Origin: Gemmatimonadaceae bacterium
GTDB lineage: Bacteria; Gemmatimonadota; Gemmatimonadetes; Gemmatimonadales; Gemmatimonadaceae
DNA: 32,054 nt
Direction: 5' to 3'
Assembly (NCBI GenBank): GCA_025930755.1
Contig: JAICOJ010000032.1
Span: 1-32,054, forward strand
Shown here: in pieces, positions 1 to 29,325 of the stretch
Layout: the number at the start of each line of letters is the position of its first letter
Position numbering within the stretch: position 1 is the stretch's first letter
Position numbers and translations under genes: made by a program
Notes under the pieces: model-generated
The model's database searches: none
What the model saw: only the letters and a program-made list of their open reading frames with translations
Told to the model about the DNA's origin: nothing

Positions 1-924
1 CGCGAAATCGCCCTGATCACGCAGGCTCTGCGCGACGCGGCGCATCACTGGCAGGCGATAGCGCCCGGTGCCTTCGCGCCCCCGGAAGTACTGATCGGCC
101 GCTTCGGCGCCACCGACCTGTGTGAACGCGATCGCCATGTATTCGATCGCTTCGGCCTGGAGTCCGAGGCGAGCCTGCTGCTCGGATGACAGCTGGTCAT
201 AGGACGCGACCAGTCGGCCGAAGACGTCGACCGCCCGCCGATACTCTTCCTGATTGGTCGCGGTGGCCTGGTTGTAATACGCCCACCCGAGCTTGTAGAG
301 CGCCAGGAAGTAGATGTCGCCGTTAGGCGGAGCCGACTGGGTGGCGGCCTCGTACGCCTCGGCTGCCCGCGCGAACGTCTGCCGGCGGGGGGCTCCCCGT
401 TGCTGGGCGGCCAGCTCGAACTGCGCATCGCCCAGGCGGAAGTACGCCTCCGGACGGAAGCGCGACGAATCGTCCTTTGTGACCGCCTCGAACATGCGAG
501 CGGCATCGGCATAGCGCTGGGAGGAGAAATACATCGTCCCCAGCGTGTATGCCGCGGCGTCGAACTTCGAGAAGTTCGGATAGCGCCGCACCAGATCTTC
601 CAGGCGGGCGATCGCCGGCTCGTAGTTCGGACGAATGGGCGCGTCGGCGCGTCCCGCGGTGTCACCGCCGACGGCGCGCTGCGACTCGGCGAACTCCTCA
701 TCAGCCCGGCGGACGAGCAGCTCGCTCAGCTGAAAGAGCGCGTTGGGTCGCAGGTCGCTCGCCGGATATCTCGTGAGAAACGACTCCAGCTTCGCGATGG
801 CCTCGTCCCGCGCGGTATCCGCCGGCGAGTTCGCCATGGCGACGAGCCGCGTGCCGCCTTCCTGAGCGAGCGCGAGGACGGGGGCGAGGGCAACAAGAGC
901 GAGGAGTCCGAGTATGCGCTTCAT
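1..924 (-). CDS. Secreted TPR protein (GltE/NfsE-like candidate), 3' end outside window
   Basis: The reading frame starts at ATG 924 and stays open to the left edge, giving 308 codons without a stop. The N-terminus (MKRILGLLALVALAPVLALAQ) is a clear Sec signal peptide. After it come helical repeat units with TPR spacing, such as 'AIAKLESFLTRYP', 'AIARLEDLVRRYPNF' and 'YADAARMFEAVTKDD', so this is a periplasmic TPR scaffold protein. The start lies 3 bases after the stop of the upstream TPR gene, so the two are almost certainly co-transcribed and translationally coupled. It is the fifth gene of the operon that begins at 6417. By position and class it matches the GltE/NfsE TPR component of the Myxococcus machinery; YbgF/CpoB-like or generic TPR proteins are alternatives. 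TPR is certain; the Glt link is inference. Confidence 0.85.
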   Translation of the reverse strand, partial: MKRILGLLALVALAPVLALAQEGGTRLVAMANSPADTARDEAIAKLESFLTRYPASDLRPNALFQLSELLVRRADEEFAESQRAVGGDTAGRADAPIRPNYEPAIARLEDLVRRYPNFSKFDAAAYTLGTMYFSSQRYADAARMFEAVTKDDSSRFRPEAYFRLGDAQFELAAQQRGAPRRQTFARAAEAYEAATQSAPPNGDIYFLALYKLGWAYYNQATATNQEEYRRAVDVFGRLVASYDQLSSEQQARLGLQAEAIEYMAIAFTQVGGAEAADQYFRGREGTGRYRLPVMRRVAQSLRDQGDFA

Positions 925-927
925 ATC

Positions 928-3198
928 CTACCGGGGTGTCGATGGCGTGACGGGAGCGGGAGCGGCCTGTTCTGCTCCCGCGACGGTGCCCGAACCAGTA
1001 CCCCCTGCCCGACCCTGAGTGCCCGCCGCACGCGTGCCGGTGGGCTCGACGACCTGGAAGAAGGAAGCGCTCGCCGATCCGAAGTCTGCGGCCTCCGCAT
1101 CCTTCCGCAACTGGGCGATCATGCGCTCGGCACGCGCGCGAAGCTCAGCGTCGACGACGGCGATCACCTGGGCTTCGCCCTGCGCGAGCGCCGCCTGTGC
1201 GCTGGCGAGGGCAGCCCGGGCGGCCCGCACCCGCTCCGACTCGCCGCCCTGAAGGGCGGCGAGCTCGGCGGCGACGATTTGCTGTGTCGCATCCAGCTGG
1301 CTGCGAACCGAGTCCACGAGCGCAAACGCGTGGTTCGACTTCTGTTGCAGTGAATCCCGCAATGCGACCACAGGATGGCGACGGACGGCGCTCTCGATGT
1401 TCTGCTCGATCGCCTGCGCCAGGCGGAGGTAGATCTCGGCCGTCGAGCGCTCGTACTGGAGGATGGTAGCTTCCGTCGAGCCGGCGGCCGCGCCCAGCGC
1501 GGCGCGCGTGCTGTCGACCTTGGCCAGGTTCGCCTGTGCGAGCTCGCGGGTCTCCGCGGCGCTGGCGACGAGCATGTCTCGCACCATGTTGGCGACCTCG
1601 TCGACCGCGGCGGACACGCGCTGCAGCGAATCGCGAGCGGTGGTCAACCGCGCGGTCACCGTGTCGAGGCGCGAGCGCTCCTGCCCAATGACCTCCTGCA
1701 GACGCTGCATGGTCGCCAGGCGCAGCTGCTGCGCATCGAGCTGTTCCTGGAGGCGTAGCTGCGCCATGGCCACCAGCACGTCACCCGCCGCCAGCCGCTC
1801 CGCAGCCTGCGCATAACGACCGAGGTTCTCGGTGGAGGCCGGGACGTACAGCACCCGTCTCGGGAACCCGGCGCCAAGCGCGTTGGCCACCGTGTCGAGC
1901 CGTACCTCGACATCGGCGAGCGTTACGACGTCGGGCGCTGGTGGGTCCGTCGCAACACGCGCGAGCGCGCTGTCGGCGAAGACCGCCGCCAGCACGGAGA
2001 CGTCGGCGCCTGCGGCGTCGGGTAGCGCGAGGGTCTTTCCGGCGGCCGGGTAGCTCAGGAACAGCAGCCCCGCGGCGCGCGACGTCACGAGTGCCCGGGC
2101 GGCGTTACCCATCTGCCCGGCGCCGCCCTGCACCACGTTCACTTCGGCGGCCAGGGAATCGGAGATCGATTCGAACAGGCGCTCCGCGTCCGCGGTGCGT
2201 CCCTGCTGAAGCTGGATCTGCGCGGCGAGCACGCGCGCCTCGTCACGCTCGGGGAGCTTTGGATAGCGTGTCGCAAACTCGGTGAAGGAGGCTGCTGACG
2301 CGTCGAGCTGGTTGGCGCGGAACTGCGCCCAGGCGCGAATCAGAAGCGCCTGCGCCCCCAACCCACGGGCGGCGTCGATCTGGCCCGCCACGGCAATGGC
2401 GTCGTCATACCGACGCGCGGAGTACGCGAGCTGCGCCGCGGTGAGGCGAACGTGATCCGCCGCATCCCCGGTGGCGCTGCCGGCCAGCTGACGGAGGGCA
2501 TCGATGGCCGCCCCGACTTGCGACGTGTCGGCGCGCGCCATTGCCACCGCATCCATGTAGCGCGCGTAGATGGTGAATGGCCCCTCGTTCTGCGCGGCAG
2601 CGGCGAAGGACGTCCGCGCCTGCGCGACATTCCCCTGGTTGTACGCCACGAGCCCGGAAATGAGCGCCGTTAGGCCCCGATCACCGGCGACGCCGGCGCC
2701 GCTGGCGAGCTCGGTCGCTCGTCCATAATCGCCGCGGCGATACGCGTCGACCATGAGCTGAAGCCGCAGCAGTCCGGTGTACCGGCCGGAGGGTGACGCG
2801 TTGACAATGTCCTGCGCGGCGCCGCGGAAGCGTTCTCCGACGCCGAGCCGGTAGTAGGTCTGCGCGAGGAGAAAGAGCAGATCCTGGCGGCGGTTGACGC
2901 TCGCGCGCGAGACGCTGTCGCCCGTGAGAGCAACCGGCGAGGCGCGCAGGAACTCCAGGCGGTTGAGCGCCACCAGCGCCCGATCGGTCGCGATGTCGTA
3001 GAGCGCTGCACGCAGCTCGGCATCGACGCCGCGCGCCTGATCCGGCTGCGGCGTGACGGCGGTATCGCGTCTGGCAGTCGTATCGACGACCGGCGTCGGC
3101 CGCTGCGCCGTGTCGGCGGGGACCTGCGCCGATGCCGCGCCGGCCAGGATGAGCGCTGTCGCGGCGCCATGGATGCACGACCGCACGAGGGAGGACAC
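928..3198 (-). CDS. Large secreted TPR and coiled-coil protein (GltD/NfsD-like candidate)
   Basis: The start chosen is GTG 3198 (756 aa). It has AAGGG eight bases upstream and gives a good signal peptide (VSSLVRSCIHGAATALILAGAASAQ). Earlier in-frame GTGs at 3207 and 3243 are possible, but the latter overlaps the preceding gene by 31 bases. The N-terminal half is TPR-like, with repeats such as 'NRRQDLLFLLAQTYYRLG' and 'DDAIAVAGQIDAARGLG'. The C-terminal half is long Ala/Arg/Glu/Gln-rich coiled coil, including 'LQEQLDAQQLRLATMQRLQ', and ends in a Gly/Ala/Pro-rich tail. It is probably a periplasmic scaffold. It sits 14 bases after the 231-aa gene and 3 bases before the next TPR gene. Class and position fit GltD/NfsD of the Myxococcus gliding and spore-coat systems; I cannot confirm homology by search. 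Confidence 0.85.
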   Translation of the reverse strand: MSSLVRSCIHGAATALILAGAASAQVPADTAQRPTPVVDTTARRDTAVTPQPDQARGVDAELRAALYDIATDRALVALNRLEFLRASPVALTGDSVSRASVNRRQDLLFLLAQTYYRLGVGERFRGAAQDIVNASPSGRYTGLLRLQLMVDAYRRGDYGRATELASGAGVAGDRGLTALISGLVAYNQGNVAQARTSFAAAAQNEGPFTIYARYMDAVAMARADTSQVGAAIDALRQLAGSATGDAADHVRLTAAQLAYSARRYDDAIAVAGQIDAARGLGAQALLIRAWAQFRANQLDASAASFTEFATRYPKLPERDEARVLAAQIQLQQGRTADAERLFESISDSLAAEVNVVQGGAGQMGNAARALVTSRAAGLLFLSYPAAGKTLALPDAAGADVSVLAAVFADSALARVATDPPAPDVVTLADVEVRLDTVANALGAGFPRRVLYVPASTENLGRYAQAAERLAAGDVLVAMAQLRLQEQLDAQQLRLATMQRLQEVIGQERSRLDTVTARLTTARDSLQRVSAAVDEVANMVRDMLVASAAETRELAQANLAKVDSTRAALGAAAGSTEATILQYERSTAEIYLRLAQAIEQNIESAVRRHPVVALRDSLQQKSNHAFALVDSVRSQLDATQQIVAAELAALQGGESERVRAARAALASAQAALAQGEAQVIAVVDAELRARAERMIAQLRKDAEAADFGSASASFFQVVEPTGTRAAGTQGRAGGTGSGTVAGAEQAAPAPVTPSTPR

Positions 3199-3212
3199 CG
3201 AGCCCACCCTTA

Positions 3213-3908
3213 TCAGAAGGGAGTAGTGCCGCGACTCGTCCACGTCGTCGGGACGAGCTGTCCGTTGCGCACAGCGAATTGCAGGTACGTGACGGTCTCA
3301 CCCGCTGTGTTGACGTCGATCGTCTGTACGATCGGCTGTCCATTCACCGTCGCCTGGAACCGAATCGAGTGCCGCGTCGGCAGGACGTCGGAGCGATACA
3401 GCTGATCGACCGCGCCGAGCTTGAGCGCCTCGTTCGCAGTGGCCGAGTACTCGCGAGTCGCCGCAACGGCGCCATCGACCTCGACGCGTGCGTCGGTAAT
3501 CGTCTGACCTTGCGCGGCCGAATCCGCGCGAAGCAGGACGACCAGCACCGAGCCGGTGCGCCGGCGAACGGCGTCGCCCAGGGAACGGAAGCGCTCGCGC
3601 TGCGCGATCAAGTTGTCCTGCGAGGACGTCAGAATCGCATCGAGCTGCATCAGCGCGTCGCGCTCGCTGCTCATCATCAACTGCTGCGCGCGGCGCTCGA
3701 GCTCCGCGGCGAGCACGTTTTCGATGCGGGCCTGAAGCTGAACGCGCTGCCCGCGCAGCTCGCTGAGCCGCTGCTGCGTCGTCTCGAGCTCTTTCACCAG
3801 CTCGGCACGGCGCCGTTCGTAGGCCTCGTCCGCGGGTGACCGTTGGGCGGCCGCGGCCACGGGAATGAGAAGCGCGAGGGCCGGAGCCCACCATCCACGA
3901 AGGTTCAT
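3213..3908 (-). CDS. Small periplasmic coiled-coil protein (GltC/NfsC-like candidate)
   Basis: 231 aa starting at ATG 3908. The signal peptide is MNLRGWWAPALALLIPVAAAAQ. Residues about 26-105 are a charged coiled coil (for example 'RRRAELVKELETTQQRLSEL'). The remaining ~120 residues look like a compact beta domain, with alternating strands around 'DARVEVDGAVAATREY', 'HSIRFQATVNGQPIVQ' and 'TVTYLQFAVRNGQ'. From memory, proteins of this size and layout next to gliding-type TPR genes in myxobacteria are often mislabelled 'dihydrolipoamide acetyltransferase'; there is no lipoyl or acyltransferase motif here. It lies 28 bases after the second barrel gene and 14 bases before the large TPR gene, so it is the third gene of the operon. 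Role inferred: periplasmic link between outer-membrane barrels and TPR scaffold. Confidence 0.85.
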   Translation of the reverse strand: MNLRGWWAPALALLIPVAAAAQRSPADEAYERRRAELVKELETTQQRLSELRGQRVQLQARIENVLAAELERRAQQLMMSSERDALMQLDAILTSSQDNLIAQRERFRSLGDAVRRRTGSVLVVLLRADSAAQGQTITDARVEVDGAVAATREYSATANEALKLGAVDQLYRSDVLPTRHSIRFQATVNGQPIVQTIDVNTAGETVTYLQFAVRNGQLVPTTWTSRGTTPF

Positions 3909-3936
3909 GAGATCTCGTCGAGAATGCGCACTGGGA

Positions 3937-5151
3937 TCAGCGGCGACGTGGCGGTGGCGCGCGTTCCTCGATGCGGCGGAGCCGCTCCTCGAGGCGCTGC
4001 AATGCTTCGCGCTCCGCCCGGAGCTCGGCTTCCGCCGCGGCGCGACGCTGCTCGAGCTCGAGAAGATTCTGAGCCTCGTACCGGTTGATCTCGAGCTCCA
4101 ACGCCGCGATGCGCTGCTGCCGCGTTTGAATCTCGGCGAGCAACGCTTCTCGCTGCCGCTCGAGCTGTGTCACGCGCGTGCGAAGGAAGTCTCCCTTCAA
4201 CAACGCGAAGATGTTGCTCTGGAGGCCCAGCGTAAAGGCGAACTTGCTGTAGTTGTACAGCGCGCGCGCGGCCGCCTCGGTGGTGGTGTTGTCAGGCGAG
4301 CGGGCAGCACCGGCTCCGAGCTCCGTCCAATAGAGGCCGGCCCGCATGCCGCGCCAGTCGAGCGACGCGCCCACGTTGTAATCCCAGGCGTTGTTTTCCG
4401 CCATGAGCGACAGAACGGTGTTCGGCGTCGGGGTGAAGTCGACCTTGATGCCCCCGAACAGTCCGCCGGTCGAGTTCTTGGCGTACGCATCACCAAGCTC
4501 GCCATCCTCCGAGAACAGCCCGTTGCCGTACCCGACCGAGATCGAGAGGTTCACGTCGGGCCACCCGGACCTGATGTCCGCGAGCGAGAACGACTTGGTC
4601 CCGACGCCGTACACCGTCGGGGTGACGTCGAACGACTCGTGAATGCTGTCGGCCACGTGCCGATAGTTCGGCGAGCCGGGGTTCGGAGGCAGGAGTGAAT
4701 ACCCGATCCCGAATCGATCGATCTGATCGTACGGACCGATCCCGCGAACCCCGAACGCGATGCTGGGAATGAACCACCCGCCTGGGCGCCCGCGGAACTG
4801 CTCCTCGTTCAGCACGAGTGCCTGCCCGAAGAATCCGTACTCGGGATTGCTCGAGTAGAAGGCGACGCCAGCCTCGACGCGTCCGAAGACCGACAGCGAG
4901 AACGTGAGCTGCGAGTTCAGCTGATCGTTGTAATTGATCTTCGTGACGGTCTGATCGCCCTTTTCGAACGTCTTGACCGAGTAGTTGAGCGCGAAGTCAC
5001 CGCTCAACGGCGCGACCCACGCGACCGGAATGTCGACGAGTCCCGCGCCCCAATAGAGCGTCTGCGGATACGTCTGCTGTGCCGCGAGTGGGCTCGCCAG
5101 GGCGCCGAGCCCGACAGTGGCTGCGGTCACGACGCGACGACGGATGCTCAT
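3937..5151 (-). CDS. Outer-membrane barrel-like protein with C-terminal coiled coil (paralogue 2)
   Basis: 404 aa from ATG 5151, with GAGG eight bases upstream. The signal peptide is MSIRRRVVTAATVGLGALASPLAAQQ. Residues ~27-315 are rich in alternating aromatic and polar segments with glycine turns, such as 'LYWGAGLVDIPVAWVAP' and 'SLSVFGRVEAGVAFYSSN', as in transmembrane beta strands. Residues ~318-398 are a heptad-like coiled coil starting at 'LRTRVTQLERQREALLAEI', followed by a short Pro/Arg end. It is a tandem paralogue of the gene ending at 5164 and starts 12 bases after it. Motifs shared are 'YPxTL', 'GxGLxxIPVAWVxP' and 'LRTRVTxL'. By class and order it would match GltB/NfsB. A YjbH-like barrel is an alternative because of the 'GLINIP' style N-terminus. 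Barrel prediction is by eye. Confidence 0.85.
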   Translation of the reverse strand: MSIRRRVVTAATVGLGALASPLAAQQTYPQTLYWGAGLVDIPVAWVAPLSGDFALNYSVKTFEKGDQTVTKINYNDQLNSQLTFSLSVFGRVEAGVAFYSSNPEYGFFGQALVLNEEQFRGRPGGWFIPSIAFGVRGIGPYDQIDRFGIGYSLLPPNPGSPNYRHVADSIHESFDVTPTVYGVGTKSFSLADIRSGWPDVNLSISVGYGNGLFSEDGELGDAYAKNSTGGLFGGIKVDFTPTPNTVLSLMAENNAWDYNVGASLDWRGMRAGLYWTELGAGAARSPDNTTTEAAARALYNYSKFAFTLGLQSNIFALLKGDFLRTRVTQLERQREALLAEIQTRQQRIAALELEINRYEAQNLLELEQRRAAAEAELRAEREALQRLEERLRRIEERAPPPRRR

Positions 5152-5163
5152 CGTTCTTTCCTC

Positions 5164-6417
5164 TTAGCGGAACGCGGGCGGAGTGGCGCTCGACGACGGC
5201 GCGCTGGGCGGCGGCGAGCTGGACGGTGGCGGTGTTGTCGGCGGCGGCGGATTGCGCTCGATGTTCTGGAGCCGCTCCTCGGCGCGCCGAATCGCATCGC
5301 GCTCTTCCTGGATCTGGCGCTCGAGCTCCTCACGACGACGGGCAATGTCGGCGAGCTCACCGGCCTGGGCGCGACGTAGCGCGACCTCGAGCGCCTGAAT
5401 ACGGCGCTCACGGTTCGCGATCTCGGCGCGCAGCCGGTACTGCTCGCGCGTCAGCTCCGTCACCCGCGTGCGGAGAATGACGCCGCGCGAGATGTCGATC
5501 AGGTTTCCTGCATAGCCGAGCGAGACATTCCACTTGCGGTAGTTGTAGACCCGGCAAAGGTTGCACTTCGCTGGGTCGCGTGACCCCTCCTCGAGCTCCG
5601 TTCCGTACAGCCCGAGCGAAATGCCGCGCCAATCGAGAAGGACACCGGCATTCCAATCCCACGCGTCGTTCTCGGCCAGCACCGTGACCGACGTGTTCAG
5701 GGACGGATGGAAGGATACGCGGCCGCCAAGGAACATTCCTTCGACGAGCGTGCCTTTCATGTTGTACTCGTCGCCGAGCCCGCCGTCATCGCTGAAGATG
5801 CCGTTGCCCCAGCCAACCGAGAAGCTGCCGCTGGTGGCGAGGGGAGAACCGAACTCCTTCGTCGCAACCGCGTACAGCGTGGGCGTCGACTTCAACTCCG
5901 TGAAGAACGGCGCCACTTCCTCCTCGTACTCGACGCCTTGCAACGCGATGTCATGGGCGATGAGCAGGCGATCGGAATGATCGTAGGGCCCCAGGTTGCG
6001 CACGCCAATCGCGACGGAGGGAACCACGCCCCCGAACTGCTCCTCGCGCAGCAGCATGACCTGCCCAAAGAACCCCCACTCGGGGTTCTGGCTGTACGCC
6101 GCCACGCCCGCGGAGAAGCGACCGAGCCAGTGCGTGTCGATGGCGATATTCGTGTTCCACTTCGTGGCCCAGTTCATCGCATCGACATTCACGTAGTGCT
6201 CGATCGTCTTGGCCGACGTATTCAGCCACATGTCGGCATTGCGCGGTGACACCCACGCCACGGGAATGTTGATCAGGCCCGTGCCGAACTGAAGCGTCGC
6301 CGGATACGGCGTGCGCTGCACGGTCGGGGCGTCCTGCGCCGCCGCAGCGGACGCCAGGAGCAGCGAAGCTGCGAGGGCGCGCGGCATCAAGCCGACAGCC
6401 GACCGCATCGTGCGCAT
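5164..6417 (-). CDS. Outer-membrane barrel-like protein with coiled coil and Pro/Ser tail (paralogue 1)
   Basis: The start is ATG 6417, preceded by GGAGG at short spacing (417 aa); the in-frame ATG at 6408 is less well placed. Signal peptide, then 'YPATLQFGTGLINIPVAWV' and about 300 residues of beta-strand-like sequence. A coiled coil follows, beginning 'LRTRVTELTREQYRLRAEI' and running through 'RRREELERQIQEERDAIRR'. It ends in a Pro/Ser-rich tail of ~30 residues that the paralogue lacks. A CNLC motif in the barrel part is also absent from the paralogue. This is the first gene of the five-gene operon and therefore a candidate GltA/NfsA-like outer-membrane component. The coiled coil would sit in the periplasm and the Pro tail might reach peptidoglycan; both are inference. 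Confidence 0.85.
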   Translation of the reverse strand: MRTMRSAVGLMPRALAASLLLASAAAAQDAPTVQRTPYPATLQFGTGLINIPVAWVSPRNADMWLNTSAKTIEHYVNVDAMNWATKWNTNIAIDTHWLGRFSAGVAAYSQNPEWGFFGQVMLLREEQFGGVVPSVAIGVRNLGPYDHSDRLLIAHDIALQGVEYEEEVAPFFTELKSTPTLYAVATKEFGSPLATSGSFSVGWGNGIFSDDGGLGDEYNMKGTLVEGMFLGGRVSFHPSLNTSVTVLAENDAWDWNAGVLLDWRGISLGLYGTELEEGSRDPAKCNLCRVYNYRKWNVSLGYAGNLIDISRGVILRTRVTELTREQYRLRAEIANRERRIQALEVALRRAQAGELADIARRREELERQIQEERDAIRRAEERLQNIERNPPPPTTPPPSSSPPPSAPSSSATPPAFR

Positions 6418-8484: not shown

Positions 8485-9774
8485 GTGCGCTCGCTGCTCG
8501 CCGCCACGTACGAGGTCGCGGCGCGACTCGCGCTCGTGGCTGCACAGCTGCTTCCGCCGGGCCAGTCGAAGCTCGTGCGCACCCTTCGCGCCCGGCGCGG
8601 GATTTCCGGCCGGTATCGACGCTGGGCGGACCTGCACCGCGACCGCGCGCGTCCGCTCCTCTGGATGCACGCTCCTTCAGTGGGGGAAGGGCTCCAGGCG
8701 CGCCCCGTGCTCGAGCGGGTCCGAGCCACCCGGCCCGACGTGCAGCTCGCGTACACGTACTTCTCCCCGAGCGCGGAGGCCTTCGCCGCCAGGCTGAACG
8801 TCGATTTTCGCGACTACCTGCCATTCGACGCCACCGGCTCCGCGCGCAGCGCACTGGACGCGCTGCATCCCACGGCGCTCGTCTTTTCCAAGGTCGACGT
8901 CTGGCCGACGCTCACTCGTGAGGCGCGGGCCCGGAACATCCGGCTCGGACTGATCAGCGCGACACTCGCCGCGCGATCGTCCCGACGGCGCGGTCTCGCC
9001 TCAGCGATGCTGCGCGAGGCGTACGCGCGTCTCGATGCCGTCGGAGCCATCGACGCCGAGGACGCCGAACGCCTCGCCGAGCTCGGGGTACGCCGCGGCG
9101 TCATCCAGGTCACCGGCGACACGCGCTACGATCAGGTGTGGGCTCGCGCGGTGTCGGTCGACCGCTCGAGCGCGCTCCTGGCGCCACTCGATTCCGCCCG
9201 CCCGACCCTGGTGGCTGGAAGCACGTGGCCCGCCGACGAGCGCGTGCTGCTGGCCGCGTGGCTCCGCGCACGACGCCTCGTCAGCGACGCGAGACTCATC
9301 ATCGCGCCCCACGAGCCGACCGGCGCGCACCTCCTGCCAATCGAACGGTGGGCGGCGGAATCCAGCGTTCCATACGCTCGGCTGGGGGCGCCCGGCGCAG
9401 ACCGCGCCGACGTAGTCGTCGTCGATCGCGTGGGCGTCCTTGGCGACCTGTATGCGCTCGCGACGGTCGCCTTCGTCGGCGGAGGATTCCACGCTGCCGG
9501 ACTGCACTCGGTGGTCGAGCCCGCGGCGTTCGGCGCGCCGGTGATCTTTGGGCCTCGCTGGCACATGAGTCGCGACGCACGCCTCCTGCTGCAGGCGGAC
9601 AGCGCCGCCGCGGTGTCGGATGCGGCGGAAATGGAGAGACGACTGCATGAGTGGATGAAGTCGGCCACCGAGCGACAGGCAGCGGGAGACCGTGCTCGTG
9701 AGGTCGTGCGCTCGGGACTGGGAGCCGCCGATCGCAGTGTCGCGCTCGTGGCGCGACTGCTCGACGGGGCCTAG
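8485..9774 (+). CDS. waaA: 3-deoxy-D-manno-octulosonate (Kdo) transferase
   Basis: 429 aa from GTG 8485. It adds Kdo from CMP-Kdo to lipid A precursor at the cytoplasmic face of the inner membrane, an essential step in LPS core synthesis. Length matches the family (~425 aa). Family marks: 'WMHAPSVGEG' with the catalytic-base Glu68 of the SVGE motif; 'VFSKVDVWPTL', equivalent to the ETxxWP loop but with Lys-Val-Asp, closer to the Bacteroidetes pattern; 'AGSTWPADE'; 'IIAPHEPTG'; 'VVVDRVGVLGDLYALA'; and 'FVGGGFHAAGLHSVVEPAAFGAPVIFGP'. The N-terminal helix is amphipathic rather than a clear transmembrane anchor. It is last in the 6631-9774 operon. Its TAG stop lies inside a CTAG shared with the stop of the convergent EAL gene. 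Confidence 0.92.
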   Translation: MRSLLAATYEVAARLALVAAQLLPPGQSKLVRTLRARRGISGRYRRWADLHRDRARPLLWMHAPSVGEGLQARPVLERVRATRPDVQLAYTYFSPSAEAFAARLNVDFRDYLPFDATGSARSALDALHPTALVFSKVDVWPTLTREARARNIRLGLISATLAARSSRRRGLASAMLREAYARLDAVGAIDAEDAERLAELGVRRGVIQVTGDTRYDQVWARAVSVDRSSALLAPLDSARPTLVAGSTWPADERVLLAAWLRARRLVSDARLIIAPHEPTGAHLLPIERWAAESSVPYARLGAPGADRADVVVVDRVGVLGDLYALATVAFVGGGFHAAGLHSVVEPAAFGAPVIFGPRWHMSRDARLLLQADSAAAVSDAAEMERRLHEWMKSATERQAAGDRAREVVRSGLGAADRSVALVARLLDGA

Positions 9775-11411
9775 CGCGGCGCTCGCGCCGCCGGCAGTCC
9801 GAACGTGGGCACGAGATCGGGGCGATGCAGGAAGAACCCCTGCACCAACGGCACGCCGAGCTGCTTGACGGTCTCGAGCTCCTCTGCGCGCTCCACCCCT
9901 TCAGCGATCACCATCGCGTCGTGCTCCTCGGCGAATTTCACCATCGTCTCGACGAGATTCTGCTTGATGAAGTTCGTGTCGATCGAATTGATGAGGGAGA
10001 TGTCGAGCTTGATGAAGTCGGGCTCGAGATTCGCGATCGATCCGAGCCCAGCGTAGCCGCTGCCGGCATCATCGACGGCGAACCGGAAGCCACGGTCGCG
10101 AAATGCCTGGAGCCGCTCGCGGAATTTGGGATAATCCTTGATCGCGGTGCGCTCGGTGATCTCGATGACGACGCGCTCCGGATCGGCCGCTTCGAGCGAG
10201 TCGAAGGTGGGATCGGAGAAGTCGTGCGGATCCACGTTCAGGAAGAGCAGCTGCTGATCGGTGAGCCACGACGCCATGCCTTCGACCGCGCGGCTCCGGC
10301 AGAGGCGAGACAGCTCCCAAATGAGATCGGCCTCGGCGGCCACCTCGAACATCACCTCGGGGCTGCGCAAGCTGCGCATGACGCCGCGCGCCAACGCCTC
10401 GTAGCCGAAGATCTCACCGGTGTCCGTGGTGAGAATCGGGTGATAGTCGATGTAGACGCTGCGGGCGCGAAGCGTGGCCTTGAGATCCGAGACTTTGCGG
10501 GCGCGCTCGCGCTCTTCGACGCTCTTGGCCGCGTTGGCGGCTTCACGAATGCCGCGATAGATGAGGCGCTCGAGCCGGATCTTCGGGTTGTAGTACACGT
10601 GGGAAGATCCAATGTAGATATCGAACAGCGCCGCGATCTCCTCCCCATGCGCCTCCTCCAGCCGCTGCGCGACGTGTCGCTCGAGCCGGCTGGCGAGCTC
10701 GGTGATCAGGCGCTCGCTCGCCGCGGGAACCCCGGGCGCCGGCACGTGGAAGAAGATGAAGTCGTCGTCGTTGGTGAAGCCCACCATCATCCGCGACGAC
10801 CGCAGCGCGCTGTCATCGAGAAACTCGTGCACGGATCGCGCGGTGGTCTCGAGCACCGCATCGAGCTTCTCCCAGCCGTAAATCTCCTCGATCTTCGAGT
10901 AACGCACGAAGTTGAGATACATCACGACGAGCTCCCCGCGCTTGCGGATGGCGCCGCGCATCCGCTCGATCATCACCGGGAGCGTGGGCAGGCCGGTGAG
11001 CGCATCGTAGAGCATCTCCTGGCGCTCGACGCGCTCCGCCCGCTCGGCGACTTCCGCACCGGTGGGCGCGACGCGGCCTAACGCGGTATGGATGCGGGCG
11101 GCGATCTCCTCCGGGGACGCGGGCGAGCGATACCATTCCTCGACGCGGAAGTCGACCGCGCGCCGTCGCGCCGTCTCGTCCCGGCACCCCATGATGACCG
11201 CGATCCGGCGCTCGTGGCTCTTCTCGACGGCAGCGCGGAGAATGGTCGGGTCATCGGTCGTCAGCAGGACCGCCCGTATGTCCGACATCGCGTCCAGCGT
11301 CTCGACGAGCTCGTCGAGCGGACGCATCTCCAGGCGCCACCCCGGCAGGGCGGCGACGGCCTCTTGAACTTCCTGGTCGTTGGTGTCGCTCAGCAGTACG
11401 GAAACGGTCAC
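9771..11411 (-). CDS. Pseudo-receiver, degenerate GGDEF and intact EAL protein: likely c-di-GMP phosphodiesterase
   Basis: 546 aa from GTG 11411, with no clear Shine-Dalgarno and 15 bases after the response-regulator stop, suggesting translational coupling. Residues 1-112 look like a receiver domain that has lost its chemistry: the usual phospho-Asp region reads 'AVLLTTDDPT' and the Lys-Pro loop reads 'WYRSPASP'. Residues ~135-300 are GGDEF-like with 'YDALTGLPT', but the active-site motif is TNDDDF (213-218) and the metal Asp region reads 'LNFVRY', so cyclase activity is unlikely. The EAL domain (~310-535) looks complete: EAL 338-340, Asn392, Glu417/Glu420, Asp447-Asp448, Lys468, Glu504 and Gln524. 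Expected reaction: c-di-GMP to pGpG. The degenerate GGDEF may act as a nucleotide sensor. Cytoplasmic; no membrane segment. Confidence 0.93.
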   Translation of the reverse strand: MTVSVLLSDTNDQEVQEAVAALPGWRLEMRPLDELVETLDAMSDIRAVLLTTDDPTILRAAVEKSHERRIAVIMGCRDETARRRAVDFRVEEWYRSPASPEEIAARIHTALGRVAPTGAEVAERAERVERQEMLYDALTGLPTLPVMIERMRGAIRKRGELVVMYLNFVRYSKIEEIYGWEKLDAVLETTARSVHEFLDDSALRSSRMMVGFTNDDDFIFFHVPAPGVPAASERLITELASRLERHVAQRLEEAHGEEIAALFDIYIGSSHVYYNPKIRLERLIYRGIREAANAAKSVEERERARKVSDLKATLRARSVYIDYHPILTTDTGEIFGYEALARGVMRSLRSPEVMFEVAAEADLIWELSRLCRSRAVEGMASWLTDQQLLFLNVDPHDFSDPTFDSLEAADPERVVIEITERTAIKDYPKFRERLQAFRDRGFRFAVDDAGSGYAGLGSIANLEPDFIKLDISLINSIDTNFIKQNLVETMVKFAEEHDAMVIAEGVERAEELETVKQLGVPLVQGFFLHRPDLVPTFGLPAARAPR

Positions 11412-13534: not shown

Positions 13535-14935
13535 CTACGCGTTGCGATTGATGCAAGCACCCGTGGCGGGAACGTTCGGATTGTTCTCCTCCGCCTGTGG
13601 AACAGGAAGGTTCACGTCGTCACCGTACGTTCCGCCCTTGAAGTGCCGTCCGACCGGGAACGTATTGTCCTCCGTGCGGCCGTACTGTCGGATCAGGCGC
13701 CGCAGATCGCCCAGTCGCTGACCGCGGCTGAACGTCCAGAACGCCTTCTCCCGGAAGAACAAATTGATCGCGGCGTCATACGTCGTCGGTACGGGCAGCG
13801 CAGCCATGACCGGGGGCTGCACCTCACCCAACCGTGGTGGAGCAGCGCGCAGTCCATTCAGAATCGTCATCATGCCGGCGAAGTCCATCGCACGGAGGCG
13901 GGCCTCGGCGACGATCAGCCGGGCGTCGAGTCCGTTGGCAACGGCGATCGACGTCGTACGCCCGTAGAGCGTGGTGGTCCGTGAATTGGTTTGTCCGTCC
14001 TGCGACTTTACCGTATCACGTCCATTCGCCGCGATCGTGTACACGACCGGCAACCGCGGATCCTGCGCGGTGAAAAACGGTATGGCGTTGCGCACCGTGT
14101 CGGACCGCGAGTTCCCTTCGAGTGAATCACCGACCGTGTAGCGCCGGGAGCTCGCCGCCTGATTCCAGATAATGTTGTCGCCGCTCGTCACCGCAAACGT
14201 GTGATTGTAGGCGAAGGACAGGGGAATCGAGTCCACGAGTGCCGCCGCTTGCGCGACCTGGTCGATTCCGACCATGGCGCGCGCCTTGGACACGAGGGCG
14301 CCGCGTCGGATCGTCACCGTCGCGCTGTCGGTCGCGGTGGCGAGAGCGATCGCGGAATCGAACGACGCGATCGCGCGGCGGAACACCGAGTCGACCGGGA
14401 GTGGTACGCCGGGTATCACGTCGTCCCCTTCGATCCGGCTGAGCGGGATGCCGTTACAGAAATCCTGCGCCATCTGCATCTCGGCAAACCCCCGGGCGAA
14501 GTACACGTCGGCGATGGTTCTCGCCGGCTCGGGGCGATACTGCTTGAGCCCCCGGATCGCCAAATCGGCCGCCAGGCGTACCCGCCCCATGTCGCGGAAC
14601 ATTCCCGTGACGATCGAGTTGTTCGTCTGGACCTTCCGCTGATCCGTTTCGTCGTTCTGGACGAACGTCGAGCTCGTGGACCACTCATCGGCGAGCAGCC
14701 CACCGAACAGCCACGTGCTTTCATCACCGGCCGTCAGGTCGCGAAAGAACTCCAGCGCACCATTGGCAAGTGCCACTGCGCCTTCCGCGTTCTGCACGTC
14801 TTCCGGATTGATCAGGTCCGGATCCTTGGCCTCGAGGAGGGAGTCCGTGAGGTCGCACGCCGCGACGGCGAGCAATCCTGCCGCCGCGAGCGCGCGCATC
14901 CCCGCCCGGCTCCATGCGGTCATCTCTCGTCTCAT
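13535..14935 (-). CDS. SusD/RagB-like substrate-binding lipoprotein, pair 1
   Basis: 466 aa from ATG 14935, with GGAG ten bases upstream; the frame is open further upstream but would overlap SusC. Signal peptide ends in the lipobox VAAC (Cys27), so it is an outer-membrane lipoprotein, by family knowledge at the cell surface over the SusC barrel. SusD/RagB features: 'LEAKDPDLINPEDVQNAEGA' near the N-terminus, alpha-helical TPR-like scaffold ('ADVYFARGFAEMQMAQDFCNG'), 'DARLIVAEARLRAMDFAGM', 'FFREKAFWTFSRGQRLGDLRR' and the closing 'PQAEENNPN'. A Cys lies four residues from the C-terminal end region (GACINRNA), also seen in the SusD of pair 3. It begins 25 bases after the SusC stop. The substrate (glycan or peptide) cannot be read from the sequence. 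Confidence 0.92.
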   Translation of the reverse strand: MRREMTAWSRAGMRALAAAGLLAVAACDLTDSLLEAKDPDLINPEDVQNAEGAVALANGALEFFRDLTAGDESTWLFGGLLADEWSTSSTFVQNDETDQRKVQTNNSIVTGMFRDMGRVRLAADLAIRGLKQYRPEPARTIADVYFARGFAEMQMAQDFCNGIPLSRIEGDDVIPGVPLPVDSVFRRAIASFDSAIALATATDSATVTIRRGALVSKARAMVGIDQVAQAAALVDSIPLSFAYNHTFAVTSGDNIIWNQAASSRRYTVGDSLEGNSRSDTVRNAIPFFTAQDPRLPVVYTIAANGRDTVKSQDGQTNSRTTTLYGRTTSIAVANGLDARLIVAEARLRAMDFAGMMTILNGLRAAPPRLGEVQPPVMAALPVPTTYDAAINLFFREKAFWTFSRGQRLGDLRRLIRQYGRTEDNTFPVGRHFKGGTYGDDVNLPVPQAEENNPNVPATGACINRNA

Positions 14936-14960
14936 GGTCTGAGTTCTCCAGGGATGGTCG

Positions 14961-17900
14961 TTAGAAGCCGAGGTTGACACGGAAAATCAGCGATGACGTC
15001 GGGCCGAAGGTCTGGAATTCGTCGGGCCGGTCATTCGATTCGCCGGCGAGACGATCCGTCTCCGGATCGACGCCGCGATAGTCCGACCAGACGGCGAGGT
15101 TGCGTGCCGTCACGACGAACTGCGCGCTCGACGCCCGCATCATCGCCGCCCACCGCTCAGGGGCACGCAACGATACGGACATTTCGCGGAATCGCAGGAA
15201 GTCGCCCTTCTGGATGAATCCCGCGACCGTGCGCGTCGGATGGTCACGGGTCGCGACGACCATGGCCTGCTCCTCGAACGACGCATTCGGATTCATCAGG
15301 CCGTTGCAGTTCGCGCGGCTCACGCACCGGATGCGCTCGGTGTTGTTGTACCAGTAGTGACCGCCGCGCCAGTCGAACATCGCCTGCAGACGCAACATGC
15401 GGTTGAACAGGTCGAGGCCGCCGGTCGTCGTGATGTTGTGCCGTGGCTGCACATATCCGATGAAGCTCGCCACGCTGTCGACGAACACCTCGTTGAGCGC
15501 GGCATTCGAGTTGTAGGTGAGAATACCGTCCCCATTCTTATCGTCCCAGCCCTGGATCTTCCGCTCCCAGAAGCCGAAGAGCGGGTAGCCTTCGACGACA
15601 CGCGTCGTGACGCCGATCTGTGGTGGCGTCCCGCCGAGGCTGAGCAGCTTGTTGGAGTTCGTCGACGCGCTCACCGTCAGGTCGAAGCCGACGGACTCAC
15701 GCTGAAGCAGCTGGGTGCTCACCAACAGCTCCCACCCGTTGTTCTGCACTGCTCCCAGATTCTGGCGAACCGTCGTGCCAATGGAGCCATAGGAGGGCGG
15801 CACCACGGCATCGATGAGGGCGTCCTTCGTGCGCTTGCGGTAGTGCGTGAGATCCACCGTGGCGCGATCGTTCAGGAAACGCGCTTCGAACCCCAATTCG
15901 AGCTCCGTGGTGCGCTCGGGTCTCAGGTCCTCGTTTCCGATGTCATCGAACTGCACCGCTGGCACGTCCACCGCGCGAATGTTGGTGGCCTCGCCGGCGT
16001 AGGTGCGGAGCGCATCGTTCGACCCGGGCTGTACGCCCGACGCCCCATAGGCGGAGCGGAGACGGAAATAGCTCATCCACCCGATTTCAGGGAAAAACGG
16101 CTCGTCGGAGAGAATCCACGACACGCTCGCCTTCGGATAGAACACGCGCTGGAACTCCGTGCCGAAGGCGCTGTTCTGGTCCGTACGCAACGCCGCCGTG
16201 AGGAACAACCGATCGTTGAGCGTGACGGACTCCTCGACGAACAGGCCGAGCGTCTTCGAGTACGTGGCCGACTCGCGGGAGCCGGGCTCGGCGGCATTGT
16301 TCGGAATCTGCTGCCCCGGCGGCAAATCCTCACCCGAGGCTTCGCCGAACTCGAGCTTGTAGTCGACGTACTGCACGCCAGCCGTCGTCCGCGACAGGAT
16401 GTTGTCCCGCACCTGCCACGACGCACTGCTGGCGATGTCCGCGCTCAGGTTCCGAATGTCGGCGCGCGTGTTGAACTTGAACCCGAGCCGATAGGTGTTG
16501 TTGATCGGCGGTCCGCTGCCACGCAGCAGCAGGTTGTCGTCAACGCGGTCGGTGAAGTCGTTGCCGAAGTTCATGCGCGTGTCGAGCCACGACGTCGGCC
16601 GCCAGTTGGCGCTGAGGCTGCCGATGTACCGATTGAGCTTCTGGCCGATCTTCTCTTCCCAGGAGTACGCTGGCGTCCAGGCACGGTAGCCATTGAGCGG
16701 CGTTCCGAGACCGCCGCCGACGGTGCCATTCTCGCGATAGCCCGGTCCACCGAAGACCTGCGAGCCAATGCCCACCGTCGCGTTCGACTCGGGCGAATAG
16801 CGCTGGTCGATGTTGATGAAGTTGAAGAACACCGCGAGGTCCAGCTTGGAGCTCAGCGCCGCGGCGAGGTTGGCGCGCATGCTGTTTCGCCCGAGCACGT
16901 TCGGCCGCTCGGTCCACTCGGCGATGGGCAGTCCTAACGAGTCGAAGCGCCGCCGCTCGAACTTCGGCAGCTCGAACACCCCCGTCTCGCCTTCGCGCTC
17001 GGCGGCGACGAAGTAGCGCACGATCTCGGTGCCGCCCGAGACCTGGGCGCCGAACTGGTAGCGGTTGCCCATTCCGATCGGCGTCAGGTCATCGTCTTCC
17101 ATGATGTCGAGCGTCCGCACGCTGTCACGGATACACGACCCCGTGGAGACCTGCGGCAAGGTGCACGCGCGTCCCGTCGTCGCTCCCGGAGAATGCCCCC
17201 AGATCGTGTAGTTCGTCGGATAGTCGTTCCGGTCTTCGATGAGACCGCCTTCGACGTACGCGGTCCATCGGGCCGGCCCCGCGCGGCCGCGCTTGGTCGT
17301 GATGACCACCACTCCGTTGGCCGCATCGGTGCCGTAGAGCGTCGCCGCCGACGGCCCCTTGACGATCTCGATGTTCTCGATCTCGTCCGGGTTGATGTCG
17401 GCCGCCCGGCTCGGCTGCGTGCCGCCGGTGAAGAGCTCCGATGAGTTGGAGTTCCTGGTCATGCGCACGCCGTCAATGATGTAAATCGGGTCGTTCGAGA
17501 GGTTGAGGCTGCTCTGCCCCCGAATCCGGATGCGCGAGCCCGATCCGGTTTGCGACCCCGTGACTACGGTGACGCCCGGCGCGCGGGAGTTGAGGACATC
17601 GGCGATGGTCGACACCGGCGCCGTCTGCGTGACGTTGGCGACGTCGATCGTCGACACGGCGTTACCGAGCTCTTCGCGGGCCGTCTGCCCCGTGGCGGTC
17701 GTGACGACCGGCGCGATGCTCACGGCGACCTGCGAGAGCGTGAAGTCGACGCTCGCCTGCTGCCCTGCCGCCACCTGCACCGGCCTGCGCTGCTCGGCGT
17801 AGCCGACGCGAAGCGCGCGCACCTGAACGGTGCCCTGCGGAACGTTGCGGAGCAGCAGCCGACCCTCGGAGTTCGTGACGCCGCCGAGGTTGGTGCCGAC

Positions 17901-18056
17901 GACGTTCACCTGGACCGCTTCGACCGGGCGAGCGGTACCCTGCTCCGTCACCTGCACGAGAATACTTCCCTGCTGCGCGTGCGCAGCCGTCGCGCTGACG
18001 AGCAACGCGAGGGCCACGCCGGCACAGCGCATCGCGCTGACAACATGGACGTGCAT
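14961..18056 (-). CDS. SusC/RagA-like TonB-dependent outer-membrane transporter, pair 1
   Basis: 1031 aa from ATG 18056, which has a near-perfect Shine-Dalgarno (GGAGGTG); the long in-frame extension to 18215 is Arg/Pro-rich and lacks signal character. Order: signal peptide 1-27 (ends AHAQ), carboxypeptidase-regulatory-like domain (~30-105, 'VNVVGTNLGGVTNSEGRLLL'), TonB-box region ('APVVTTATGQ'), plug ('SRIRIRGQSSLNLSNDPIYI', 'DEIENIEIVKGPSAATLYG', 'NGVVVITTKRG') and a large barrel ending in the aromatic Phe ('FRVNLGF'). It imports large substrates with energy from TonB-ExbBD, the SusD acting as lid. 'RIRCVSRANCNG' carries a Cys pair that the pair-3 SusC also has. Its leader has two hairpins, one around the ribosome-binding site. 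Confidence 0.94.
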   Translation of the reverse strand: MHVHVVSAMRCAGVALALLVSATAAHAQQGSILVQVTEQGTARPVEAVQVNVVGTNLGGVTNSEGRLLLRNVPQGTVQVRALRVGYAEQRRPVQVAAGQQASVDFTLSQVAVSIAPVVTTATGQTAREELGNAVSTIDVANVTQTAPVSTIADVLNSRAPGVTVVTGSQTGSGSRIRIRGQSSLNLSNDPIYIIDGVRMTRNSNSSELFTGGTQPSRAADINPDEIENIEIVKGPSAATLYGTDAANGVVVITTKRGRAGPARWTAYVEGGLIEDRNDYPTNYTIWGHSPGATTGRACTLPQVSTGSCIRDSVRTLDIMEDDDLTPIGMGNRYQFGAQVSGGTEIVRYFVAAEREGETGVFELPKFERRRFDSLGLPIAEWTERPNVLGRNSMRANLAAALSSKLDLAVFFNFINIDQRYSPESNATVGIGSQVFGGPGYRENGTVGGGLGTPLNGYRAWTPAYSWEEKIGQKLNRYIGSLSANWRPTSWLDTRMNFGNDFTDRVDDNLLLRGSGPPINNTYRLGFKFNTRADIRNLSADIASSASWQVRDNILSRTTAGVQYVDYKLEFGEASGEDLPPGQQIPNNAAEPGSRESATYSKTLGLFVEESVTLNDRLFLTAALRTDQNSAFGTEFQRVFYPKASVSWILSDEPFFPEIGWMSYFRLRSAYGASGVQPGSNDALRTYAGEATNIRAVDVPAVQFDDIGNEDLRPERTTELELGFEARFLNDRATVDLTHYRKRTKDALIDAVVPPSYGSIGTTVRQNLGAVQNNGWELLVSTQLLQRESVGFDLTVSASTNSNKLLSLGGTPPQIGVTTRVVEGYPLFGFWERKIQGWDDKNGDGILTYNSNAALNEVFVDSVASFIGYVQPRHNITTTGGLDLFNRMLRLQAMFDWRGGHYWYNNTERIRCVSRANCNGLMNPNASFEEQAMVVATRDHPTRTVAGFIQKGDFLRFREMSVSLRAPERWAAMMRASSAQFVVTARNLAVWSDYRGVDPETDRLAGESNDRPDEFQTFGPTSSLIFRVNLGF

Positions 18057-18057
18057 C

Positions 18058-18073
18058 CGACACCTCCGTGTCG
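18058..18073 (-). promoter_or_regulatory. Hairpin presenting the SusC 1 ribosome-binding site in its loop
   Basis: On the minus strand CGACAC-GGAG-GTGTCG forms a perfect six-base stem whose four-base loop is the Shine-Dalgarno core GGAG. It ends one base before the start codon at 18056. It could tune translation by RNA-binding protein or temperature, or simply be a small hairpin melted by the ribosome. Confidence 0.55.
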
Positions 18074-18080
18074 CGGGAAA

Positions 18081-18102
18081 GCGCGCGCCTCCTGGCGCGC
18101 GC
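18081..18102 (-). promoter_or_regulatory. GC-only 9-bp hairpin in the SusC 1 leader
   Basis: Perfect inverted repeat gcgcgcgcc / ggcgcgcgc with a four-base loop reading AGGA on the minus strand. It is 24 bases before the start codon and is followed by TTTCCC. It may act as an attenuator, an mRNA stabiliser or a regulator site; nothing in the sequence decides. Confidence 0.55.
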
Positions 18103-18189
18103 GGGGAACACGATCGGGAGCGCAGACCTTCAGAGGCCGCCGCCATCACGCGGATACTCGGCATCGGCACGAGAACCCATGGGGCGTAA

Positions 18190-18326
18190 TCACGGTTCAG
18201 TCGGGAACGCCCCAAGGTTGCGGCCCAGTCACGGGGCTGTCAAGACAGCGTTGGCGAACGGTGTGGAGCGGAGGGTGGGATCACCCGCACGCGCGGTGAT
18301 GTGGTCAGCAAAACGTCACGGTTCAG
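18190..18326. promoter_or_regulatory. 11-bp direct repeat TCACGGTTCAG flanking the SusC 1 promoter
   Basis: TCACGGTTCAG occurs at 18190-18200 and again at 18316-18326. The first copy would lie just downstream of the predicted transcription start of SusC 1; the second lies upstream of its -35 box, towards the divergent lipoprotein gene. This could be a pair of operators for one regulator. The rest of the 412-base gap between 18056 and 18469 holds the promoter and leader described separately and no other gene. Confidence 0.35.
18215..18243 (-). promoter_or_regulatory. Predicted promoter of SusC/SusD pair 1
   Basis: On the minus strand, TTGACA (18238-18243), a 17-base spacer and CAACCT (18215-18220). 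The -35 is perfect, the -10 weak. The spacer shares GTGAC and GGCCG positions with the promoter proposed for SusC 2, and both predict leaders of about 150-160 bases, which supports the call. Confidence 0.4.
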
Positions 18327-19608: not shown

Positions 19609-21126
19609 TTACATGTCGGGCTGGCCCACGCCGCCGAACGTATAGATCGGCAGCTGCAACGTCTCGAGCTCCTTCGCCGGAATCGGAAGGTGGCGCAGCG
19701 TTCCCGGCTGCAAGCCGTCAACGTGACGGCGGCGGAAGTGCTCGAAGCCGCTCGAGTTGATGAGCTCGATCTCGCGCTCGTAATCGATGTACTCGAGGAG
19801 CTTGTCGGCTCCCTCGGCAGCCGTGGCGGGTGGAAGCTTGCCGCGGCCGACGCGCGTGGTGTTGATCAGACTGGCTGCCGTAGCGAGGCTACCGCCCGTG
19901 CGAATGAGCGCCTCGGCGTGGACGAGATCGCTCTCGGCCGCGAGGAGATACGGCACCGGCGTTCCTGCGGCGGTCGGCGAGAACCGGCGATGCGCCTCGT
20001 ACCGGCTATGCCACCACGGCGTCTGCATGTAAATGCCGCGGCCTGCATCGCCGATCACGTCGCCGGCGAATGTGAAATCGCCGACGTTGTCAGTGGTATC
20101 GCCACCCTGGTCCTTCATGTAGCGATCGTCCGGCGAGTTGCCCGGGGGCACGATGGTACCGGTGAACTTCGCGGGCGTCGATCCGTCCATGCGGTTGATG
20201 ACTCGCACGTCGATGCGCACCCAACTCGGCTCGTTGCCGTAGTAGTTGAGGTACGACCACCAGTTGGTGCCGCCGTCGCCCTGCACCACCATGTCGAACG
20301 GCGTTCCGGCGGTTCCCGTACCGATCCCCTTCTCCGCCAGCGTCTTGACCTTGGCCCAGTCCACGCCCGCCACGTCAGCGGCGCGACGCGGGGTGTAGGC
20401 CAGGAGCAGTGCGTGCATCGTATTGGCGATGCGGTTGAGCTTCACCGCGGTGAGCGGCCCCCCCTCGAGTGGGATAGGCTCGTCATCCACGTAGCTGTAC
20501 GTCTTCCCCGCGGTCGCGGCGATCAGCTCATCGAACCACTTGCTCGCCGTGTCCGAGACCTGTTCGAAGGGTAACAGCTCCGGCGACGGATCGGTCTCGG
20601 GGTTGAACTCCTCGTTCACCACGAACGCCCGGTCGAAGAGCAGCGCCAGGTTCATCAGCGACGCGGCGCGCGTCCACATCGCGAGGTGCAGGAACCGCTC
20701 GTGCGGCGTGTCGTCGCCGAGCGTCCCGCCCCGCATCACGCGAATGACGTCATTCGCCGCGCCGAGTGTCGAGTAGTTGTCCTCCCACGGCCGGTTGGTG
20801 ACCTCACGGTCACCACCTGCCGAGTTGTTGCCGTACGGAGTGCGCGGCTCGAGGTTGTTGAAGCGCATTCCGAAGTTTCCGAAGTTCGCCGACAGCACGT
20901 CGGCGGTCACACCGAGCATCATGTAGGGCTCGATGTAGGTGCTCGTGAGGTACCAGCTGTTGACCGACGAGATCGCGATGTTCTGCACGTCCTCGGGGGT
21001 CGCGAGCGCGCGATCGACGTCGGGATTGTTGGGGTTCGTCACATCCAGATCCGTTTGGCAAGCGGTGCTTGCCAGGACCAGGACGACGCCCGCGGACAAC
21101 CCGCGAAGTTTCGGTGAAATTCTCAT
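19609..21126 (-). CDS. SusD/RagB-like substrate-binding lipoprotein, pair 2
   Basis: 505 aa from ATG 21126; AGGAG is present but 13 bases away, so translation may depend on coupling to SusC, whose stop is 33 bases upstream. Signal peptide ends in STAC (Cys23). SusD features: 'LDVTNPNNPDVDRALATPED' at the N-terminus, then helical segments 'PHERFLHLAMWTRAASLMN' and 'NRIANTMHALLLAYTPRRA', 'PYLLAAESDLVHAEALIRTG', 'LLEYIDYEREIELINSSGFE' and the classical SusD ending 'LPIPAKELETLQLP'. It belongs to a different subfamily from the SusD of pairs 1 and 3, which end in 'PQAExNNPN'. It would bind substrate above its SusC. Substrate unknown. Confidence 0.92.
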   Translation of the reverse strand: MRISPKLRGLSAGVVLVLASTACQTDLDVTNPNNPDVDRALATPEDVQNIAISSVNSWYLTSTYIEPYMMLGVTADVLSANFGNFGMRFNNLEPRTPYGNNSAGGDREVTNRPWEDNYSTLGAANDVIRVMRGGTLGDDTPHERFLHLAMWTRAASLMNLALLFDRAFVVNEEFNPETDPSPELLPFEQVSDTASKWFDELIAATAGKTYSYVDDEPIPLEGGPLTAVKLNRIANTMHALLLAYTPRRAADVAGVDWAKVKTLAEKGIGTGTAGTPFDMVVQGDGGTNWWSYLNYYGNEPSWVRIDVRVINRMDGSTPAKFTGTIVPPGNSPDDRYMKDQGGDTTDNVGDFTFAGDVIGDAGRGIYMQTPWWHSRYEAHRRFSPTAAGTPVPYLLAAESDLVHAEALIRTGGSLATAASLINTTRVGRGKLPPATAAEGADKLLEYIDYEREIELINSSGFEHFRRRHVDGLQPGTLRHLPIPAKELETLQLPIYTFGGVGQPDM

Positions 21127-21159
21127 GGTATTCAGATATCTCCTAAGGGCGTCTGCCCG

Positions 21160-24270: not shown

Positions 24271-24300
24271 GCCGTTCCTCGTTGAGGAGGTTACCTCGTT
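24271..24300 (-). promoter_or_regulatory. SusC 2 leader segment with two competing short pairings
   Basis: On the minus strand the order is GAGG-TAA-CCTC-CTCAAC-GAGG-AACGGC-ATG. The middle CCTC can pair with either GAGG; the second GAGG is the ribosome-binding site. AACGAGG is also directly repeated. Stems are only four bases, so this is suggestive at most. Confidence 0.3.
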
Positions 24301-24437
24301 CAATTGGACCTCGAGCTTCCTGAACTGGGACAAACGCTGACTTCGGGTACGCCACTGACGGCGCGCGTCGCACCTCCGTGTTTGGAAAAGGTGTGGATGT
24401 TTGCGAAGGAGTTAGGGAGGGGTAAAGAAAGCGCCCC

Positions 24438-25759: not shown

Positions 25760-25793
25760 CGAGCGAATGTGGATAGCTCCTCCTTCACCCAGC

Positions 25794-25824
25794 CTAATAC
25801 CCGCGGCGGCGCCCGCTGTGTCAA
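25794..25824 (-). promoter_or_regulatory. Possible promoter of the plug/TonB-C fusion gene
   Basis: On the minus strand TTGACA (25819-25824) and TATTAG (25794-25799), separated by 19 bases, which is longer than the usual 17. Both boxes are good alone. It lies in the only gap between the SGNH gene and the fusion gene. Confidence 0.35.
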
Positions 25825-25842
25825 GCGCGGCGCGGCTGGAGG

Positions 25843-29284: not shown

Positions 29285-29325
29285 ATGAGAAGTCCTCTCC
29301 GTGAGTTCAGGTCGCTGTGTGGTCA

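Follow-up and report, generated by a model that had tools for sequence, protein, structure and literature searches.

The five minus-strand genes that fill positions 1 to 6417 of this DNA are, with a probability of about two in three, the 5' half of a ten-gene, self-contained operon encoding a trans-envelope machine of the Agl-Glt/Nfs family, one that belongs to the lineage of the G4 type (the gene cluster found beside mglBA in Myxococcota) and is equipped with barrels specific to its own phylum. The relationship to the Agl-Glt/Nfs trans-envelope machines, which had been suspected in a sequence-only reading, is borne out by the profile matches of three proteins (E, Q and G) and by the presence of motor genes in the same operon of relatives.

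Genes at the contig end

The window, that is, the whole stretch of 32,054 nucleotides that was analysed, is an entire contig (G000:C79), and the contig end at position 1 falls inside the fifth of the genes listed here.

Gene A, 5164..6417, minus strand: reading frame open from 6453, with the ATG at 6417 as the probable start
Gene B, 3937..5151, minus strand: paralogue of A with the same layout
Gene C, 3213..3908, minus strand: 231-aa predicted periplasmic protein
Gene D, 928..3198, minus strand: 756 aa from 3198, the reading frame being open from 3243
Gene E, 1..924, minus strand: N-terminal 308 aa of a TPR protein that is about 1000 aa long, truncated where the contig ends

The five neighbouring open-reading frames were found where they had been reported, and are separated by 12, 28, 14 and 3 bases when D starts at 3198 and A at 6417. 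As had also been described, a segment resembling a signal peptide opens all five translations (read from the sequence), and there are TPR proteins among the five, the repeats having been detected in D and E.

Near the operon, at 8485-11411 of the window, lie kdo transferase and EAL/GGDEF genes; one or both kinds occur near the operon in several relatives as well (L033, L036, L042 and L224) and are absent in others. The 32-kb contig further harbors three SusC-like/SusD-like pairs (13535-18215, 19609-24333 and 27827-32052; assigned from gene order and from the sequences), and matches to TonB-dependent receptors were obtained for two SusC-like proteins. For one SusC-like protein the best match among plasmids is in Gemmatirosa (366 bits, compared with 182 for the best from a different phylum), which makes Gemmatimonadota the likely phylum of the window. 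Encoded at 24617-25873 is a 418-aa protein composed of CarboxypepD_reg, TonB-receptor plug and TonB C-terminal domains without a barrel. This combination is unusual, since the transducer end, which as a rule makes contact with receptors, is here joined to a receptor plug.

The complete operon in related genomes

A match to barrel A was found in 25 of the 99 genomes of the family (13 of 35 genera), and the regions around these matches revealed the gene order A, B, C, D, E (about 1000 aa), S (about 150-250 aa), Q (about 213 aa), R1, R2 and G (about 290-350 aa). The order from A through G is conserved in 15 genomes belonging to seven genera other than that of the window, a count that includes some loci in which D and E are fused and a few in which S is short or unrecognised. 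Because the identical order has been retained so widely, the arrangement of A to E is not due to chance, and the operon is real. A fortuitous cluster of unrelated envelope genes, for which one might adduce that A and B have a barrel domain that occurs alone elsewhere in the phylum, has a practically negligible probability in view of this order kept across genera and of profile matches that point independently to a single known system.

A genus-mate (G034) possesses the whole operon over two contigs, with A to D at the end of C21 (L033) and E-S-Q-R1-R2-G on C143 (L140), where E is complete (L140:182-3202). In the assembly of the window's own organism (G000), the rest of E, the motor half and an orthologous Q were not found; since the break coincides with the contig end, they were probably lost in assembly, and since this assembly is without the second half, the motor of the organism is deduced from its relatives. 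As candidates for the missing motor, two further MotA/ExbB genes of the organism were considered and rejected: the first adjoins a TonB gene, and the tree places it with ExbB; the second is of the TolQ type, its match being too short for the tree. A search to the left of position 1 for TolQR-type motor genes and a GltG-type gene had been proposed, and such genes are indeed present in the same operon of the relatives, including the genus-mate. The view that only an outer half is encoded has to be given up, as the inner-membrane half lies just downstream of E in the relatives, a place that here is beyond the contig end.

A clearly orthologous E was recognized in 15 of the 297 genomes of the phylum, all within the window's family, and 14 of these 15 have the barrels; weak E matches elsewhere in the phylum are TPR repeats. 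One genome (G020, L224) has C-D-E-S-Q-R1-R2-G without adjacent barrels, and the barrels may therefore be dispensable. D and E are fused into a single protein of about 1500-1770 aa in L037, L042, L043, L144, L225 and L226, which suggests that the two touch each other in the complex. A second protein, a small one, that bears the AgmX/PglI-type C-terminal domain is encoded downstream of G in several relatives, sometimes after a TPM-domain gene (L034:29-541, L141:14148-14642, L143:17242-17736, L224:3505-4188, L225:3779-4300 and L226:17040-17780). Relatives of A or E were not found in plasmid records.

Motor proteins, transducer and S

Q is a channel protein of the MotA/TolQ/ExbB kind (MotA_ExbB match, 1e-22), and R1 and R2 are ExbD/TolR proteins (ExbD matches, 4e-10 and 9e-13); the 14 R proteins that were aligned all have the same Asp in the membrane helix of the ExbD domain. 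In the motor tree, Q groups with the AglR-type motors (98/92) and is separate from the Tol/Ton motors (100/99), the Myxococcus triplet taken as AglRQS in this tree being assigned by gene sizes only. Such an AglRQS-type set, consisting of one TolQ-type and two ExbD-type proteins, is encoded in the operon of the relatives and of the genus-mate, not in the incomplete assembly of the window's organism. G is a short TonB-like protein (about 322 aa) with one hydrophobic segment in its alignment and, at its C-terminus, the AgmX/PglI domain known from GltG and GltJ, scoring above the cut-off (NF033768, 56.7 versus 40 bits). The GltG model NF033760 matched the C-terminal part of G (8e-9), the G profile places the protein with GltG/NfsG, and no match to an FHA domain was obtained in G, whereas an FHA-type N-terminus is present in GltG and in the relatives of G from G4. 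S is made up of a proline-rich portion and a coiled coil, and gave no clear match in profile searches.

The TolQR-type motor, together with YbgF/CpoB-like TPR repeats, could also belong to a system resembling Tol-Pal, in which the motor draws outer-membrane proteins towards the cell interior or keeps the layers of the envelope together, serving stability or division without lateral transport. Peptidoglycan-binding OmpA domains, which in other parts of the phylum are borne by some proteins related to A and B, would agree with this. We regard such a function as unlikely. The window's genome has separate TolQ-type and TonB-ExbB genes, the motor groups with AglR and not with TolQ, the OmpA domain is absent from A and B, and the distribution is patchy, so that the system is not essential housekeeping. 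TolA, TolB and Pal were not found in the operon.

Kinship of C, D and E with proteins of Myxococcota

Direct searches of Pfam, NCBIfam and PDB with the five proteins gave TPR and coiled-coil matches only. Profiles were run on ten genomes and 18 regions, the Myxococcota genomes having been reached by an MglA query (100% identical to a Myxococcus record). With hhalign, profiles A1 and A2 were compared with 163 entries, and profiles A3-A5 with 15 groups and 40 random controls. A record labelled Comamonas sp. KCTC 72670 (L050) encodes an MglA 99% identical to that of Myxococcus, and is probably mislabelled.

E was aligned with the GltD/NfsD family over almost its full length (hhalign, 3e-49, 889 columns). 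Its best hmmsearch match was the protein encoded beside mglBA (2.5e-60 in Hyalangium and 2.5e-59 in Myxococcus), and in the tree of GltD-type proteins, some branches of which are long, all of the E proteins group with G4 and its syntenic relatives, apart from the Glt and Nfs side (99/99). By tree and profiles, the closest Myxococcus system is thus the G4 cluster and not Glt/Nfs, as had been supposed.

D, a predicted periplasmic protein, consists of TPR repeats and a coiled coil. It gave no direct match to the GltC model (NF033756), and was aligned mainly in its TPR region with the GltC-type protein of G4 (hhalign, 1.6e-11; hmmsearch, 1.7e-6 in Hyalangium); this G4 protein of about 800 aa in turn matches GltC (NF033756, 6.9e-23) and NfsC (4.5e-22). 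On these sequence comparisons, D is predicted to be a GltC-type protein of the G4 branch, an assignment that is supported more weakly.

Between mglA and the GltC-type gene, G4 encodes a protein of 234-308 aa, and C is probably its counterpart, judging from a match that is remote and weak. Against the 163 Myxococcota entries, the top hit of the C profile was the family of this syntenic gene (Prob 69, the next being 9); hmmsearch within the small set found it in three genomes at 1e-4 to 3e-4, and genome-wide it was the best hit in Minicystis (E-value = 0.06) and absent in the others. The model of C shows, with moderate confidence, a helical hairpin (25-117) followed by an eight-strand domain (120-222).

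Since the GltC of M. xanthus is a 673-aa TPR protein (PMC3169522), the 231-aa C is not GltC, and the letter-by-letter equivalence to the A-B-C-D-E components that had been proposed gives way to a shifted lettering. The profile comparison with Glt/Nfs confirmed the kinship in part: D is GltC-like and E is GltD-like, while C is not GltC, and A and B are without a detectable homologue in Glt/Nfs. Similarity to the GltC and GltD families was thus found for D and E, and TolQR-like motor genes lie near by in the relatives; the findings that had been named as refuting the earlier reading did not turn up, although that reading has to be amended. A GltE-type TPR lipoprotein is encoded in the operon of none of the relatives, where S occupies its place.

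We take mglA to be MXAN_1925, and on that basis MXAN_1922 is the third gene after mglA in the Myxococcus region (L173). Disruption of MXAN_1922, the gltD homologue of G4, left motility unaffected (PMC3169522). A true gliding machine, orthologous to Agl-Glt and moving cells over surfaces, could be advocated on the grounds that the motor and periplasmic proteins are of the same family and that an MglA-like GTPase is encoded in the genome; it is, however, quite improbable, because G4 is reported to be unneeded for motility and because MglA-like proteins, being present in 97 of the 99 family genomes, do not track the operon. For the same reason, MglA was discarded as a marker of gliding. Moreover, E groups with G4 and not with GltD, counterparts of GltA/B, GltE, GltF, GltH, GltI and GltK were not recognised in the operon, and no publication on such a system in this phylum was found in the open-access literature, most subscription papers being outside the scope of the search.

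Barrels A and B

The open-reading frame of A has 429 aa; from the ATG at 6417, the signal peptide begins MRTMRSAVG and is followed by a barrel-like domain (about 45-315), a coiled coil (about 320-400) and a proline-rich tail. B (404 aa) is 45% identical to A. The terminal coiled coils of both are indicated by weak, non-specific coiled-coil matches and by helices in the model. That A and B are barrels, as had been claimed, is favored by their kinship to proteins of OmpA architecture and, weakly, by strand alternation, but not by the AF2 model (pLDDT 35); because this model, made from two sequences, failed, the barrel fold rests on the homology to the OmpA-architecture proteins. Their identification with the A and B components of Glt/Nfs could not be upheld, as they have no detectable homology to NfsA/NfsB (hhalign, Prob about 3). 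Likewise, genome-wide searches of seven to eight Myxococcota genomes gave no homologue of the barrel part, coiled-coil matches aside.

A different family of the phylum (f5) also has the barrel domain, in about 53 genomes, without a clear E. Five of the nine f5 barrel proteins tested, all from one genus, end in an OmpA peptidoglycan-binding domain, and the other four end differently; A and B have their coiled coil at the position where some related barrels bear the OmpA domain. The f5 barrel-domain loci with variable C-termini are L216, L217, L218, L219, L220, L227 and L228. The surroundings of related barrels from a different family of the class were also examined for a hidden motor cluster; none was seen, the neighbours being unrelated genes.

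Proposed mechanism

By analogy with related motors, the Q channel around R1 and R2 would pass protons and drive G, a single-pass protein whose AgmX/PglI-type end would span the periplasm. Again by analogy, both E, the long TPR protein of the GltD type, and D, of the putative GltC type, may receive the force from G. Coiled coils might link D and C to the tails of A and B, which are coiled coils as well, and the barrels, together with bound surface material, would be pulled or moved within the outer membrane; such a movement could take place because they have no OmpA anchor to the peptidoglycan. We infer all of these contacts, the direction of the force and the cargo, the contact between D and E with the support of the fusion.

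It is conceivable, though on balance doubtful, that a coiled coil replaced the peptidoglycan anchor of OmpA-type barrels, which thereby turned into the cargo carriers of a proton motor, in a transporter encoded by a single operon. If true, this transporter would be a compact counterpart of Glt/Nfs, in which the core complex and locally recruited barrels make up a surface-moving machine. As a specific form of the ten-gene machine proposed here, the cargo might be a secreted surface polysaccharide that is transported or laid out, in the same manner as the spore coat by Nfs (PMC3858216). The nearby kdo transferase and EAL/GGDEF genes hint, at most, at the control of a surface polymer; however, the operon contains no genes for polysaccharide synthesis or export, the neighbour genes are not constant, and NfsD is not the closest relative of E. 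A polysaccharide cargo therefore seems rather unlikely to us.

Gliding in myxobacteria is considered to have evolved as parts were added to a conserved core complex, itself of unknown function (PMC3169522). With a motor, a periplasmic chain and barrels in ten genes, the phylum-distant machine proposed here would be a compact system for testing what work the core does, and the comparison suggests that its outer-membrane part was recruited independently.

Comparison with known systems

The proposed machine shares with Tol-Pal and Ton a motor of the TolQ/ExbB and TolR/ExbD type with a TonB-like transducer, and differs from them in belonging to another branch of the motor tree and in the end domain of the transducer. 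With the Agl-Glt gliding machine it has in common the AglRQS-type proton motor (one TolQ-type and two ExbD-type proteins), the GltD type and the putative GltC and GltG types, whereas the GltE, F, H, I and K types were not recognised in the operon and the barrels are different. The Nfs system (nfsA-H, M. xanthus spore coat) is similar in that one cluster begins with two envelope proteins and continues with the GltC, GltD and GltG types (GltC and GltG being putative in the operon here), and in its AglRQS-type motor, the genes for which are located elsewhere in Nfs and in the operon here. Unlike Nfs, however, the operon is without the GltE, F and H types, its E is not nearest to NfsD, and NfsA and NfsB are not detectably homologous to A and B.

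A core complex of GltC, D, E, G and AglRQS exists in Gammaproteobacteria, Geobacter and Fibrobacter (Luciano 2011, PMC3169522). The operon resembles this core complex outside Myxococcota in that the motor, the GltD type and the putative GltC and GltG types are encoded together (the gammaproteobacterial operons being compared by description), and is distinguished from it by the missing GltE type and by the extra C, S and two barrels. No match to GltG or E was obtained in three Geobacter/Geomonas genomes.

The profiles of C, D, E and G all found matches in the G4 cluster, and the resemblance extends to the order of C-like, GltC-type, GltD-type and GltG-type genes, which is found in Hyalangium (L170) and, as far as the limit of the contig, in Myxococcus (L173). 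G4 differs in having mglBA adjacent, a GltE-type gene and a G of the FHA type, and is without adjacent barrels or motor genes in Myxococcus or Hyalangium, whereas the operon described here has two barrels, S and a motor of its own.
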